DNA of 56,833 bases from a virus, in the IMG/VR virus record IMGVR_UViG_3300013108_000466, positions 1 through 56,833 of that record; one strand, 5' to 3'. Made by a program: the position numbers and the translations under genes. Each line of letters begins with the position of its first letter. Position 1 is the first letter of the stretch. Below are positions 51,376 through 56,833 of the stretch, in pieces. The notes below the pieces were generated by a model, which saw only the letters and a list, made by a program, of their open reading frames with translations, searched no databases and was not told where the DNA came from.

Positions 51376-52182
51376 ATGAAAGTAAGTCACGAAGTACCTC
51401 GCTGTTTATTAACAGCATCCCCTGAATTTAATGACTATGACTACTGTCTGCCTCATTTATTAGATCAGGATGAAGAATATAAACAATATTTTTATGATGC
51501 TAAAAAATCAGGACGATATATCATTATGGATAATTCGTTACATGAATTAGGAGAAGCATATAAATGGGATAGATTACACCATTGGATTAAAGAATTAGAA
51601 CCAGATGAATTTATAGTACCTGATGTTTGGATGAATTATGCCCAAACACATGCTCAAGCAAAGTATTGGATACAACATAGTTATCCAGAAAATACTACAC
51701 CAGTAGCTGTAGTACAAGGAGAAGATAAAGGTAAAGCATTTCAGTGTTATAGAGCTTTAAAAGAATTAGGTTATAAAAAATTAGCAATATCTTATGGTGC
51801 TGATTGGTATAATGATTTACATCCTCACCCAAATAAGGATTTAGGTAAAGCATTAGGTAGAATAAATTTTGTAAGTAGTTTATATTCTGGAGGATTAATT
51901 GATAAGTATGACAGAATACATTTACTTGGTTGTTGTGTACCACAAGAATTTGGATGGTATAGAGGATACAAGGAAATAGAATCAATTGATACTTCAAACC
52001 CAGTAATGGCTGCTTTAGAAGGAACTTTATATTGGGAAGATGGTTTATCATCAAAACCCAAAGCAAATATGAATGATCATTTTGATATTGATTTTAAAGA
52101 AATTACTTATGAGGATGTTATTCATAATACAACATTATTTAGAGAAATTAATGGAATACCAAAAATAGAAAATTATGGCTAA
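51376..52182 (+). CDS. dpdA: DpdA-like DNA guanine transglycosylase (TGT fold)
   Basis: 268 residues. TGT/DpdA-type features in order: Y-I-I-M-D-N-S-L-H-E-L-G (about 48-59), E-F-I-V-P-D-V-W (about 77-84), V-A-V-V-Q-G (about 109-114), H-L-L-G-C (about 190-194) and I-D-T-S-N-P-V (about 214-220), where TGTs keep their catalytic Asp residues and substrate pocket. The tRNA-TGT zinc motif is absent, as in phage DpdA proteins. It would exchange guanine in phage DNA for a 7-deazaguanine base made by the FolE, QueD, QueE and QueC homologues in this window. The subfamily cannot be set from sequence reading alone. Confidence 0.75.
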   Translation: MKVSHEVPRCLLTASPEFNDYDYCLPHLLDQDEEYKQYFYDAKKSGRYIIMDNSLHELGEAYKWDRLHHWIKELEPDEFIVPDVWMNYAQTHAQAKYWIQHSYPENTTPVAVVQGEDKGKAFQCYRALKELGYKKLAISYGADWYNDLHPHPNKDLGKALGRINFVSSLYSGGLIDKYDRIHLLGCCVPQEFGWYRGYKEIESIDTSNPVMAALEGTLYWEDGLSSKPKANMNDHFDIDFKEITYEDVIHNTTLFREINGIPKIENYG

Positions 52183-52373: not shown

Positions 52374-52571
52374 ATGGTAGAAGTAATAAAACATGCATTA
52401 GGATTTTGTGGAGAACATTGGCATCCAAATATTTGGACCCTTCTTACAGGAGGATTTGGATTAGCAGCAATCTATTCGTATACTATATCCTATATAAAAT
52501 GTAGATATAATAAATTTAAAAAAGCGTTTGCCTATACGCTTAATAATACCTGGCAAAAATTTAAATTTTAA
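52374..52571 (+). CDS. Small membrane protein in the modification cluster
   Basis: 65 residues; starts 1 nt after the previous stop. One hydrophobic helix (about 21-41, LLTGGFGLAAIYSYTISYI) then a basic aromatic tail ending WQKFKF. Function unknown. Confidence 0.6.
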   Translation: MVEVIKHALGFCGEHWHPNIWTLLTGGFGLAAIYSYTISYIKCRYNKFKKAFAYTLNNTWQKFKF

Positions 52572-52576
52572 TTAAA

Positions 52577-53371
52577 ATGGCAAAACATTGTGTAGTTTCG
52601 TTAAGTGGTGGAATGGATAGCAGCACCCTATTGTTAAGAGCTATCAGCGAATATGATACTGTAACAGGTATCTCTTTTGATTACGGTCAAAAGCATAGAG
52701 TAGAGCTTCAAAAAGCTCAATCTTTAATTGATTACCTTGCTAGTAAAGGTCATAAAGTAAATTATAGACAAATTAAACTAGATGGTTTAGTAGACTTACT
52801 AGATTCAGCTTTAGTTCAAGGAGGAGATGATGTACCAGAAGGACATTATGAGCAAGACAATATGAAAGAAACAGTTGTTCCTAATAGGAATAAAATGTTT
52901 GCTTCTATTACTCAAGCAGTAGCTTTATCTATTGCTAATAGAACACAAGAACCAACAGATATCGCTTTAGGTATTCATGCTGGTGATCATGCAGTTTACC
53001 CTGACTGTAGACAAGAATTTAGAGATGCAGATGATGCAGCTTTTAGAATCGGTAATTGGGAAGCCGATAGAGTAGGTTACTTTACACCTTATTTAGATAC
53101 AGATAAATTAGGAATTTTACAAGATGGAGAAAAATTGGTTGAAACGTTGGGTATTGACTTTAATGAAGTCTATAAAAGAACGAATACATCATACAAACCC
53201 TATCCTAGTGGAAATTCTGATTATAAGTCTGCTTCTAGTGTTGAGAGGATTGAGGCATTTATTGCTTTGGGTAGAAAAGATCCTGTCACTTATGAGGATG
53301 AAAGTGGAGTGGTTCCTTACGAAGTAGCTGAAGCTCACGTAAAACAAGTATTAGCTGAATATTCAGCTTAA
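52577..53371 (+). CDS. queC: QueC-like ATP-pyrophosphatase without the zinc-cysteine site
   Basis: 264 residues. PP-loop S-G-G-M-D-S-S (about 9-15), D-Y-G-Q-K-H (about 34-39), V-P-N-R-N-K (about 103-108) and G-I-H-A-G-D-H match QueC (7-cyano-7-deazaguanine synthase). The C-terminal zinc site of standard QueC, T-x-S-C-Y ... C-G-x-C-x-x-C-x-x-R, aligns with T-N-T-S205-Y ... D215-Y-K-S218-A-S-S221-V-E-R, so all four Cys are replaced. The overall spacing is kept, so the fold is probably intact. It may make preQ0 without zinc, or stop at the amide, or act on another carboxylate. A tRNA-Ala follows 7 nt later. Confidence 0.8.
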   Translation: MAKHCVVSLSGGMDSSTLLLRAISEYDTVTGISFDYGQKHRVELQKAQSLIDYLASKGHKVNYRQIKLDGLVDLLDSALVQGGDDVPEGHYEQDNMKETVVPNRNKMFASITQAVALSIANRTQEPTDIALGIHAGDHAVYPDCRQEFRDADDAAFRIGNWEADRVGYFTPYLDTDKLGILQDGEKLVETLGIDFNEVYKRTNTSYKPYPSGNSDYKSASSVERIEAFIALGRKDPVTYEDESGVVPYEVAEAHVKQVLAEYSA

Positions 53372-53378
53372 TACAGGA

Positions 53379-53452
53379 GGGGGATTAGCTCAGCTGGCTA
53401 GAGCACTTGATTTGCATTCAAGAGGTCATCGGTTCGACTCCGATATCCTCCA
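53379..53452 (+). tRNA. tRNA-Ala (anticodon TGC)
   Basis: 74 nt. Acceptor GGGGGAT/ATCCTCC includes the G3-U70 pair that specifies alanine. The anticodon loop is TTTGCAT with stem CTTGA/TCAAG; T-arm ATCGG-TTCGACT-CCGAT; discriminator A. CCA is not fully encoded. All canonical arms are present. Confidence 0.95.
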
Positions 53453-53473
53453 CAAATTTTTAAACTAGAAATT

Positions 53474-53959: not shown

Positions 53960-54032
53960 TGGCTCGTGGTGTAACTGGCAACACGTCTGGTTTTGGTCCA
54001 GAAGAGTCTAGGTTCGATCCCTAGCGAGCCAA
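53960..54032 (+). tRNA. tRNA-Gln (anticodon TTG)
   Basis: 73 nt. Acceptor TGGCTCG/CGAGCCA with T1-A72, D-arm GTGT/ACAC, anticodon loop TTTTGGT on stem TCTGG/CCAGA, T-arm CTAGG-TTCGATC-CCTAG, discriminator A. Canonical cloverleaf. Confidence 0.95.
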
Positions 54033-54043
54033 CGTAAAAAATA

Positions 54044-54292: not shown

Positions 54293-54496
54293 ATGAGAAA
54301 ATTTTTAGAAAATAAATACACAAAGTTAATATTTAGTATAGCAATTATGGGCTCTGCTATTCCTTCTATTTACAAAGACTTTACTTATGGTCATAGTGGT
54401 GAATGGACACATTATGGAATGATGTTAGTTGGAGTTTTATATTTTATTGAATCATTACTTTGGACATTAGACTTATGGCAACAAAAAAACAATTAA
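54293..54496 (+). CDS. Small two-TM membrane protein
   Basis: 67 residues from ATG 54293; the upstream in-frame ATG 54245 would lie inside the structured RNA. Two hydrophobic segments (about 11-27 and 42-60). It directly follows the pseudoknotted RNA and overlaps the CorA-like gene by 22 nt. Function unknown; it could be controlled by that RNA. Confidence 0.6.
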   Translation: MRKFLENKYTKLIFSIAIMGSAIPSIYKDFTYGHSGEWTHYGMMLVGVLYFIESLLWTLDLWQQKNN

Positions 54497-54858
54497 AAAG
54501 AGCATTAGAATATTACGAAGTTGTAATTTTTGAAAATAAAGATTATGATACTGATGATTTCTATAATTTAAAAAGAGAATTATTAAGAGGAGAACATTTA
54601 GATTTAATTCAAATATTTGAAGTGCTAGAAGACATTATTGAAAAAAGACATAATGATCTAATGAATCGTAGATTAAATTTATTAACAATATGGTCTACAA
54701 TATTCTTACCACTATCTTTTTATACTGGACTTTGGGGAATGAATTTTGATGATGTTCCTTTAATATCAGATGATCATGGATTTTGGATATTTGCAGTTTT
54801 AACTGTAGGTACAATAGTAGGAATGTGGTATTATTTTAAAAAGAATAAATGGATTTAG
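54475..54858 (+). CDS. CorA-like mini magnesium-channel protein
   Basis: 127 residues from ATG 54475. The long helix (about 30-62) leads into TM1, followed by Y-T-G-L-W-G-M-N-F, the G-M-N selectivity motif of CorA Mg2+ channels, a short acidic loop and TM2 (about 97-118) with a Lys-rich end. The large N-terminal cytoplasmic sensor domain of CorA (over 200 residues) is almost absent. It may be an unregulated or modified ion channel in the inner membrane. Confidence 0.7.
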   Translation: MATKKQLKRALEYYEVVIFENKDYDTDDFYNLKRELLRGEHLDLIQIFEVLEDIIEKRHNDLMNRRLNLLTIWSTIFLPLSFYTGLWGMNFDDVPLISDDHGFWIFAVLTVGTIVGMWYYFKKNKWI

Positions 54859-54909: not shown

Positions 54910-55158
54910 ATGGCAAAAATTATTTATTTTACAGCTCCGTGGTGTGGTCCTTGTAAAGCATTAGGCCCAGTAATGGAAAAATTAAGTCATTCAATTCCTA
55001 TTCATAAAGTGAATATTGATAATGACACAAATAAGGCAACTCATTATTCTGTTAGAAGTGTTCCTACTCTAATTAAAGTAGATGAACAAAATAATGAAAT
55101 AAAGAGAACAGTAGGTAATCAATCAGAACAAGATATATTAAATTGGTATAATGGGTAA
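54910..55158 (+). CDS. Thioredoxin
   Basis: 82 residues, a short thioredoxin. Active site A-P-W11-C12-G-P-C15 and cis-Pro motif R-S-V-P-T-L are intact. It could reduce the class I ribonucleotide reductase encoded at 42484-45186 or keep biosynthetic enzymes reduced. It overlaps the QueD-like gene by 8 nt. Confidence 0.88.
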   Translation: MAKIIYFTAPWCGPCKALGPVMEKLSHSIPIHKVNIDNDTNKATHYSVRSVPTLIKVDEQNNEIKRTVGNQSEQDILNWYNG

Positions 55159-55615
55159 ATTTCAATCAAGTAAAGTATTTGACGGATTTAGTACAGTGTT
55201 CCGTCAGTGGAAAGCAACGACAACACACTGTAGATTTGTACATGGTTATGGAATATCTTTTAAAGTATATTTTGAAGGAGAATTAGATGAAAGAAATTGG
55301 GTGTGGGATTTTGGTGGTATGAAAAGAGCAAAAACTAAAATCGATGGTAAATCACCTAAAGAATGGATGGATTATATGTTTGACCACACTTTAGTAGTGG
55401 CAGAAGATGATCCTGAATTATTAGCATTTCAACAAATGGATAAAGCGGGTGTAGCTCAAGTAAGAGTAATTCCAGCTACTGGCGCAGAGAAATTTGCTGA
55501 ATATATTTATAACAAGCTTAACGAGTTCGTTGATACTGAAACTGAAGGTAGAGTTAGAGTTACCAAAGTTAAGTTCATGGAACATGGTAAAAACGCAGCT
55601 TGTTACGTAGAATAA
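55151..55615 (+). CDS. queD: QueD-like 6-carboxytetrahydropterin synthase family protein
   Basis: 154 residues. Family features: H26-C27-R-F-V-H31-G-Y33 (catalytic Cys and zinc region), V-W-D-F-G-G-M-K (about 66-73, the DF...K motif), F-D-H-T-L-V-V (about 93-99) and A-E-K-F-A-E-Y-I (Glu). The usual H-G-H zinc pair is H-G-Y here, and the first His ligand is not at its standard spacing (only H26, adjacent to the Cys). It likely acts after FolE in the 7-deazaguanine pathway; altered chemistry is possible. Confidence 0.75.
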   Translation: MGKFQSSKVFDGFSTVFRQWKATTTHCRFVHGYGISFKVYFEGELDERNWVWDFGGMKRAKTKIDGKSPKEWMDYMFDHTLVVAEDDPELLAFQQMDKAGVAQVRVIPATGAEKFAEYIYNKLNEFVDTETEGRVRVTKVKFMEHGKNAACYVE

Positions 55616-55657: not shown

Positions 55658-56443
55658 ATGCACAAACAATTGAAACGTATCGAGGATTACGATAAAAACC
55701 TCCCCATTGTAGAAATTTACACTGCAGTACAATCAGAAGGCTCAAGAGCAGGATACCCAACAGTAGTTATTAGAACAACAGGATGCACCCACAGATGCTA
55801 TTTTGGCGAAGGTGGATGGTGTGACAGTTGGTATACAAGTATCCACCCAGAAAAAGGTCATTTTAACTTTAAAGACATTATTGCCATGTATGAGAAAAAC
55901 CCTCATATAAAGGAAATGATGTTGACTGGAGGTTCACCTACTATGCATGCTGCTTTAGTAAATGAATTAACTCACTTCGCACATGAAAACGATATATTCA
56001 TTACTATTGAAACTGAAGGATCACATTTCCTTCCTACTGATTATCCTATTAATCTCCTGTCAATTTCTCCTAAGTTTAGTAATAGTGTCCCCGTTGTTGG
56101 TACTCTTACTCCTCAAGGAAAAGTTACAGACGAAAAAATGGTAAAACAACATAATAAGTTAAGACTTAATTATGATGCAATTAAACAATCAATAGCTTAT
56201 CATTCTGACTTTCATATTAAACCAGTATGGGATGGTAAAGATCAAAAAGCATTAGCTGAAATTATGGATTGTCTAGCTCAATTAGAAGTTAAACCTGAAA
56301 AAGTATGGTTTATGCCAGCAGGTGATTCTAGAGAAGCGTTATTTAAATCTTATCCTGTATTATTTGATTGGGTAAGAGATAATGGTTATAGAATGACTTG
56401 GAGACCACATATTATTGCTTTTGAAGATAAACGAGAAGTATAG
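55658..56443 (+). CDS. queE: QueE-like radical SAM 7-carboxy-7-deazaguanine synthase
   Basis: 261 residues. The N-terminal substrate strand I-Y-T-A-V-Q-S-E-G matches QueE. The Fe-S Cys motif is C43-x3-C47-x7-C55 rather than Cx3Cx2C, a five-residue expansion; variant spacings are known in QueE. The SAM motif is T-G-G-S-P (usually T-G-G-E-P). The C-terminal 'KPEKVWFMPAG' and 'WRPHIIAF' fit QueE. It makes 7-carboxy-7-deazaguanine for the QueC-like step. The stop overlaps a GTG-started small ORF by 1 nt. Confidence 0.85.
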   Translation: MHKQLKRIEDYDKNLPIVEIYTAVQSEGSRAGYPTVVIRTTGCTHRCYFGEGGWCDSWYTSIHPEKGHFNFKDIIAMYEKNPHIKEMMLTGGSPTMHAALVNELTHFAHENDIFITIETEGSHFLPTDYPINLLSISPKFSNSVPVVGTLTPQGKVTDEKMVKQHNKLRLNYDAIKQSIAYHSDFHIKPVWDGKDQKALAEIMDCLAQLEVKPEKVWFMPAGDSREALFKSYPVLFDWVRDNGYRMTWRPHIIAFEDKREV

Positions 56444-56580
56444 TGGATAAGCAAGAAGCTCTTCGTATATTAGAAGATATCAAAGAAAATGTACACGTTT
56501 GTTGTGCCATAACAATGGAACCAGATGAAGTACTAGTATTAATAGATAAATTAGAAAGTTATATAAATGAACAATCGTAG
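56443..56580 (+). CDS. Small ORF between queE and folE
   Basis: GTG at 56443 shares one base with the queE stop; 45 residues to TAG 56578-56580, overlapping the folE ATG by 14 nt. The product starts VDKQEALRILEDIKENV and has a Cys-Cys pair and a helical acidic second half (EPDEVLVLIDKLES). Tight packing supports translation, but the GTG start and lack of a known family keep confidence modest. Confidence 0.5.
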   Translation: MDKQEALRILEDIKENVHVCCAITMEPDEVLVLIDKLESYINEQS

Positions 56581-56833
56581 AAAAAACCACAAAGATTTAG
56601 AGGTAGTACAAGAGGGATTCGCAAATGGAGTTGCACCCGGGTTTCCTCTAAACGATAAAGAAAAACAAAAAATGATAAATAAGGCTACTAAAGCCTATGC
56701 TCGATTTTTAGAAGCATTAAAATGTGATTGGCAGAATGATCCCAACTCAGCTGATACTCCTATGAGAGTAGCTAAAGCATATGTAAATGATTTATGGGCT
56801 GGTAGATACACACAGATGTCTCCAATTACATCA
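56567..56833 (+). CDS. folE: GTP cyclohydrolase I, 3'-partial
   Basis: 89 codons from ATG 56567 to the window end, still open. D-P-N-S-A-D-T-P-M-R-V-A-K-A-Y-V (about 61-76) is the conserved N-terminal FolE motif, followed by D-L-W-A-G-R-Y. FolE converts GTP to dihydroneopterin triphosphate, the first step of both folate and 7-deazaguanine synthesis. With QueD, QueE and QueC homologues upstream it completes the modification pathway. The catalytic zinc residues lie beyond the window. Confidence 0.85.
   Translation, partial: MNNRRKNHKDLEVVQEGFANGVAPGFPLNDKEKQKMINKATKAYARFLEALKCDWQNDPNSADTPMRVAKAYVNDLWAGRYTQMSPITS

Follow-up and report, generated by a model that had tools for sequence, protein, structure and literature searches.

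A predicted zinc-independent QueC subfamily that probably still makes preQ0 for phage DNA modification

We describe a QueC homologue from a marine phage (IMG/VR record IMGVR_UViG_3300013108_000466; the window, that is, the whole stretch of 56,833 nucleotides analysed) that lacks the zinc cysteines of the family, and we propose that it belongs to a predicted zinc-independent QueC subfamily whose members have retained preQ0 synthesis and, in phages, supply DNA modification, a reading to which we assign a probability of about 0.78. Judged by its sequence, the window protein is QueC-like, but it lacks the zinc motif of canonical QueC and scores below the NCBI equivalog cut-off.

The open reading frame matches the Pfam QueC family (PF06508) with an E-value of 1.2e-37 and 129.9 bits, above the curated cut-off of 22, and PHROG 1550 as a QueC-like protein; its 129.4 bits against the NCBIfam equivalog TIGR00364 lie below the cut-off of 150.3. 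Canonical QueC is defined by a C(x)8CxxCxxC zinc motif (PMC13329287). At these positions the window protein has S205, D215, S218 and S221, as placed by alignment to the nearest cysteine-bearing relatives, the Bacteroidales sequences L168 (TCYSPTQTGAACGKCGSCQER) and L173. The protein has two cysteines in all, C5 and, within the YPDC motif, C144, and since none follows C144 anywhere in the 264 residues, a cysteine hidden elsewhere by the alignment is ruled out. Thus, the Pfam match and the alignment to Bacteroidales QueC confirm what an earlier note on this DNA had claimed, a QueC homologue with all four zinc cysteines replaced, and the check for other cysteines at a zinc site that it proposed found none past C144. 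Its statement that the PP-loop and substrate motifs are intact also holds: SGGxDS (S10-S15), YxQxHxxE (Y36/Q38/H40/E43), VPxRN (V101-N105) and YPDC are all kept. The first zinc position is followed by an invariant tyrosine, Y206, which matches Y189 of E. coli QueC, a residue found to be essential (Y189A, PMC13329287).

Table 1. Features of the window around the queC homologue. Locus counts refer to the best 80 of at least 599 relatives.
Feature	Position	Strand	Remarks
TGT/DpdA-fold protein, candidate DNA guanine transglycosylase	51376..52182	+	fold, homologues
Small ORF just upstream of queC	52374..52571	+	present in 31/80 loci
queC homologue without zinc cysteines, 264 aa	52577..53371	+	ATG start, PF06508 match
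PP-loop SGGMDS, residues 10-15	52604..52621	+	invariant in alignments A1/A2
YPDC substrate motif, residues 141-144	52997..53008	+	conserved
Former zinc region S205-YKPYPSGNS-D215-YK-S218-AS-S221-VER224	53189..53248	+	every zinc Cys replaced
queD (PTPS family)	55151..55615	+	near queC in 64/80 loci
queE (radical SAM, 7-carboxy-7-deazaguanine synthase)	55658..56443	+	near queC in 61/80 loci
folE (GTP cyclohydrolase I), cut by window end	56567..56833	+	near queC in 49/80 loci

An AlphaFold2 model built from 57 relatives and predicted without zinc reached a pLDDT of 91 and a pTM of 0.90, with a pLDDT of about 89-90 across the former zinc region. Its best solved matches were Cap9 (9nto, Z 19.6), Bacillus subtilis QueC (3bl5, Z 19.4) and 2pg3 (Z 18.3), with scores that are tied or nearly so, and the comparison with bacterial QueC structures that the earlier note had suggested returned a QueC fold. 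Canonical QueC (3bl5, 2pg3) and the window protein share this fold, the four motifs, the essential tyrosine and the neighbours FolE, QueD and QueE; the window protein differs in lacking the zinc site and in having inserts and a longer C-terminus. The fold is also shared with Cap9 of type IV CBASS and with QatC (9y01, 9y02; Z 17.7), both of which retain a zinc site built from cysteines and have another protein as the target that they modify (PMC13329287, PMC13279940). Cap9 has a CE(x)6CxxCxxCxD motif, is around 185 residues long and lies beside a CD-NTase, whereas the window QueC has 264 residues and no C-terminal cysteine. No partner protein of the Cap9/QatC type was seen around the window queC, whose neighbours are preQ0 genes. 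In LarE, three conserved cysteines replace the zinc motif, unlike the window protein, which has C5 and C144 only.

The earlier note called for a survey of this cysteine-less form in other phages, and the form proved to be widespread there. A scan of IMG/VR matched at least 600 stretches, of which 599 were verified relatives; in the best 80 of these (74-91% identity, picked by closeness to the query) the four zinc positions are S-D-S-S in 80/80. A nearly invariant stretch, RTNTSYKPxxSGNSDYKSASSVERIEAF, spans the zinc positions in the same best 80 of at least 599 relatives, and a DNA pattern for DYKSASSVER[IV]EAF matches at least 120 stretches in IMG/VR. This form of QueC is shared by a cultured virus, Flavobacterium phage immuto, which has QueF and the DpdA-like gene as well, and exactly one QueC, the cysteine-less one, was found in each of 17 large phage records (16 large viral contigs and phage immuto). 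The catalytic residues of QueC are kept in 147-149 of 149 cysteine-less homologues. A marine Bacteroidetes T4-like virus has been listed with queF, queE, queD and folE and without queC (PMC7198788), which would fit a cysteine-less QueC overlooked by annotation. As a side observation, two distinct QueC-like genes adjoin each other in Vibrio phage GR11A (L270:2477-4043).

This form of QueC is not confined to viruses. The nearest relatives in bacterial and archaeal genomes, at around 55% identity, are the QueC proteins of Cysteiniphilum, Facilibium and other Francisellales (L104-L111, L198-L203, L243-L249), which are cellular but share S-D-S-S with the window protein in 21/21 sequences. Next, at 43-54% identity, come Poseidoniales archaea, Pirellulaceae, Verrucomicrobia and Marinimicrobia, in which the zinc positions are occupied by S-S-S-D, S-H-T-D (the set of many Pirellulaceae) and similar sets. 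All four cysteines are kept in 30 other Planctomycetota QueC sampled, in E. coli and in two other members of the order of Cysteiniphilum. The earlier note had raised a separate subfamily of 7-deazaguanine enzymes as one possibility, and a large, conserved cysteine-less lineage in phages and cells speaks in its favour. In eight Poseidoniales (L112, L113, L116, L122, L127, L131, L139 and L141), QueC is around 380 residues long, with a C-terminal extension that resembles a methionine sulfoxide reductase B domain and has CxxC pairs of its own; this apparent QueC-MsrB fusion is located inside a folE-queE-queC-queD cluster.

The zinc cysteines have been lost separately in two QueC lineages. They are also absent from the QueC of Pseudomonas Iggyvirus (Knedl, PBPA162, PaP002), Rhizobium phage RHEph06, Dinoroseobacter phage R26L and a Stenotrophomonas phage. 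Like the window gene, the Iggyvirus and RHEph06 genes lie beside a FolE/QueD/QueE/DpdA gene set, but their replacement motif, HT[SA]YDGxYPP..xxHxxxLRA, is unlike that of the window lineage. In a tree built with the zinc-region columns excluded, Iggyvirus-type QueC groups with the QueC of Queuovirinae and with E. coli-like QueC, at a great distance from that of the window. The AU test rejects one clade for the cysteine-less sequences as a whole (p = 6.65e-91), but not for the window lineage alone (p 0.131). One common origin for all cysteine-less QueC is thus ruled out. The DNA of phage Iggy is reported as dPreQ0 in a title cited in PMC11008142. Thus, the genus with the second cysteine-less form includes a phage for which dPreQ0 is reported. 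P. aeruginosa normally has its own QueC, and therefore the dPreQ0 of Iggy need not stem from the phage enzyme.

What the cysteine-less enzyme makes can be approached through the genes that accompany it. QueF is a preQ0 nitrile reductase, and QueA and TGT need nitrile preQ0 or its product. Among 24 cellular genomes from Francisellales/Cysteiniphilum, Pirellulaceae, Verrucomicrobia, Marinimicrobia and Poseidoniales, each carries exactly one full-length QueC, the cysteine-less one, a count that is weakened by the fact that several of them are MAGs, in which a second QueC may be missed, although those of Cysteiniphilum and Facilibium belong to named strains. QueF exceeds the Pfam cut-off in 17 of the 24, namely the six from Francisellales and the 11 from Planctomycetota, Verrucomicrobia and Marinimicrobia, without exception, and QueA and TGT are each found in 16 of these 17. 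The six Poseidoniales genomes have a large TGT, consistent with archaeosine. Gene order points the same way: queF, queC and queE are adjacent in two Verrucomicrobia (L115 and L132), queD and queE adjoin queC in Cysteiniphilum, and the four genes cluster in Poseidoniales as mentioned above. Since its genomes carry QueF, TGT and QueA, the Francisellales protein probably serves tRNA queuosine rather than DNA modification. Furthermore, because a zinc-less protein is the sole full-length QueC in genomes with preQ0-dependent enzymes, the zinc of QueC is probably structural rather than catalytic, and dispensable.

In the window, a candidate for the DNA-modifying step is the gene upstream of queC whose product has a predicted TGT/DpdA fold. 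It has no Pfam match, and its similarity to NCBIfam NF041059 (DpdA) is weak (E 1e-4, 21.2 bits, short of the cut-off of 200). Its model (pLDDT 95) resembles DpdA (7ui4; Z 17.3, rmsd 3.2, 231 residues aligned) and TGT (2pwv; Z 17.3), and a homologue is present in 17/17 of the large phage records tested. It may exchange guanine for a 7-deazaguanine in DNA. The CxCxxC motif occurs in 0/41 of its relatives, and so the usual TGT zinc site seems to be absent from this family too. QueD of the window and of related loci presents HCxxxHGY instead of the CxxxHGH of E. coli, a form common to phages BcepGomr, phiSM and Knedl and to a Poseidoniales archaeon. A coordinated loss of zinc across the pathway is ruled out, however, as BcepGomr and phiSM share HCxxxHGY but keep the cysteines in QueC. 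Directly downstream of queC lie genes for tRNA-Ala (TGC, 53379-53453) and tRNA-Gln (TTG, 53960-54033), and positions 54460-54858 encode a short CorA-like protein with only the C-terminal membrane part of that family.

QueF also accompanies the cysteine-less enzyme in viruses, exceeding the cut-off in 11 of the 17 large phage records. The sampled phage QueF proteins keep the catalytic Cys/Asp motif SNCRVTNQPD and score 252-263 bits against TIGR03138, just below the cut-off of 293, and a phage that makes QueF needs the nitrile. Five large contigs of the window type (G135, G136, G139, G142 and G146) gave no QueF match, and these carry the DpdA-like type that scores closest to that of the window. 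A two-domain QueF of around 300 residues is found in the large phage relatives L275-L278 and is confined to contigs with the more distant DpdA-like type. This gene content suggests that the phage relatives split into a dPreQ0 branch and a dPreQ1 branch. For the window phage, dPreQ0 would be the first guess, as the QueF-less contigs share its closest DpdA-like type, and dPreQ1 would be the corresponding first guess for the sister type with QueF. Given that the record is a fragment of 56,833 bases, the window phage may encode QueF elsewhere.

In the pathway that we propose, FolE, QueD and QueE of the same gene set would make 7-carboxy-7-deazaguanine, which the window QueC would activate with ATP via its PP-loop and convert to the amide and then to the nitrile preQ0 in the manner of ordinary QueC. 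In the canonical enzyme, the four-cysteine zinc would pin a C-terminal loop bearing the essential tyrosine, and the Ser/Asp-rich stretch TSYKPxxSGNSDYKSASSVER may hold the Y206 loop without zinc. The TGT/DpdA-like enzyme, whose gene lies 0.4 kb upstream, would then insert the resulting preQ0 into the phage DNA, possibly after its reduction to preQ1 by QueF in the case of sister phages. We infer both the final phage DNA modification and, from the co-occurrence with QueF, QueA and TGT and the sole-QueC status, the product. At 43-56% identity to their cellular counterparts, the phage proteins could have come to make another product.

The earlier note had considered that a zinc-free variant could stop at the amide, and of the readings other than preQ0 this one survives best, although we regard it as unlikely. 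The enzyme would then release ADG (7-amido-7-deazaguanine), which the DpdA-like enzyme would insert as dADG. In its favour, the window DpdA-like protein is related to that of Campylobacter phages CP220 and CPt10 (37% identical, with 97% of its length aligned), in which guanines are fully replaced by dADG (PMC8306585), and the five window-type contigs without QueF would also fit. Nevertheless, CP220, unlike the window phage, keeps all four zinc cysteines in QueC, so its ADG does not come from zinc loss, an amide as end product and the absence of zinc cysteines do not go together, and zinc loss is ruled out as the cause of dADG phages. Moreover, sister phages with the same cysteine-less QueC encode QueF, which needs the nitrile, and the cellular form occurs with QueF, even adjoining queC in Verrucomicrobia. 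An amide end product is thus unsupported by the genomes in which this protein is the sole full-length QueC beside QueF, QueA and TGT. It is correspondingly doubtful that QueF-less, DpdA-carrying marine phages possess a natural half-QueC that releases ADG, with DNA made extensively dADG through loss of the zinc site.

Considerably less probable is another carboxyl-modifying activity on 7-carboxy-7-deazaguanine, for example that of a decarboxylase such as DpdL, which a 2023 paper reportedly presents as a predicted CDG decarboxylase in phages. Within PF06508 there is precedent for new chemistry in LarE, QatC and Cap9 (PMC13329287), but the window protein, unlike QatC or LarE, has YGQKHxxE, VPNRN, YPDC and Y206 intact. 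The use of another carboxylate, which the earlier note had also proposed, finds no support either, as genomes with QueF, QueA and TGT have no full-length QueC other than the cysteine-less form in the set examined. Just as improbable is a role of the Ser/Asp positions as ligands of another metal (Mg, Ca, Mn or Fe) instead of zinc: all four positions are polar, with one Asp in nearly every homologue, but the acidic residue stands at position 2 in phages and Francisellales and at position 4 in the other cells, and the lineage as a whole shares no typical ligand set. Decay into an inactive gene with a mere resemblance to QueC would explain the lost zinc motif but is scarcely credible for a gene within a conserved pathway neighbourhood, with the catalytic residues kept and the replacement stretch invariant in the best 80 of at least 599 relatives.

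In the literature searched, we found no description of this cysteine-less QueC, with an earlier mention possible in the 2023 paper on phage 7-deazaguanine enzymes, and the available part of the 2026 survey of the QueC family (PMC13329287) mentions no cysteine-less canonical lineage. A link between QueC and zinc supply was noted earlier, as Zur controls both queC and queF in Neisseria meningitidis (PMC6103462).

Thus, although the zinc motif is regarded as a hallmark of QueC in the literature (PMC13329287), a widespread lineage does without it, and its members are ready-made proteins for testing whether the zinc is structural or catalytic. The lineage also explains why standard equivalog cut-offs can miss queC in marine phages. 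In addition, it draws attention to numerous phages, so far little studied, that are likely to have 7-deazaguanine DNA.
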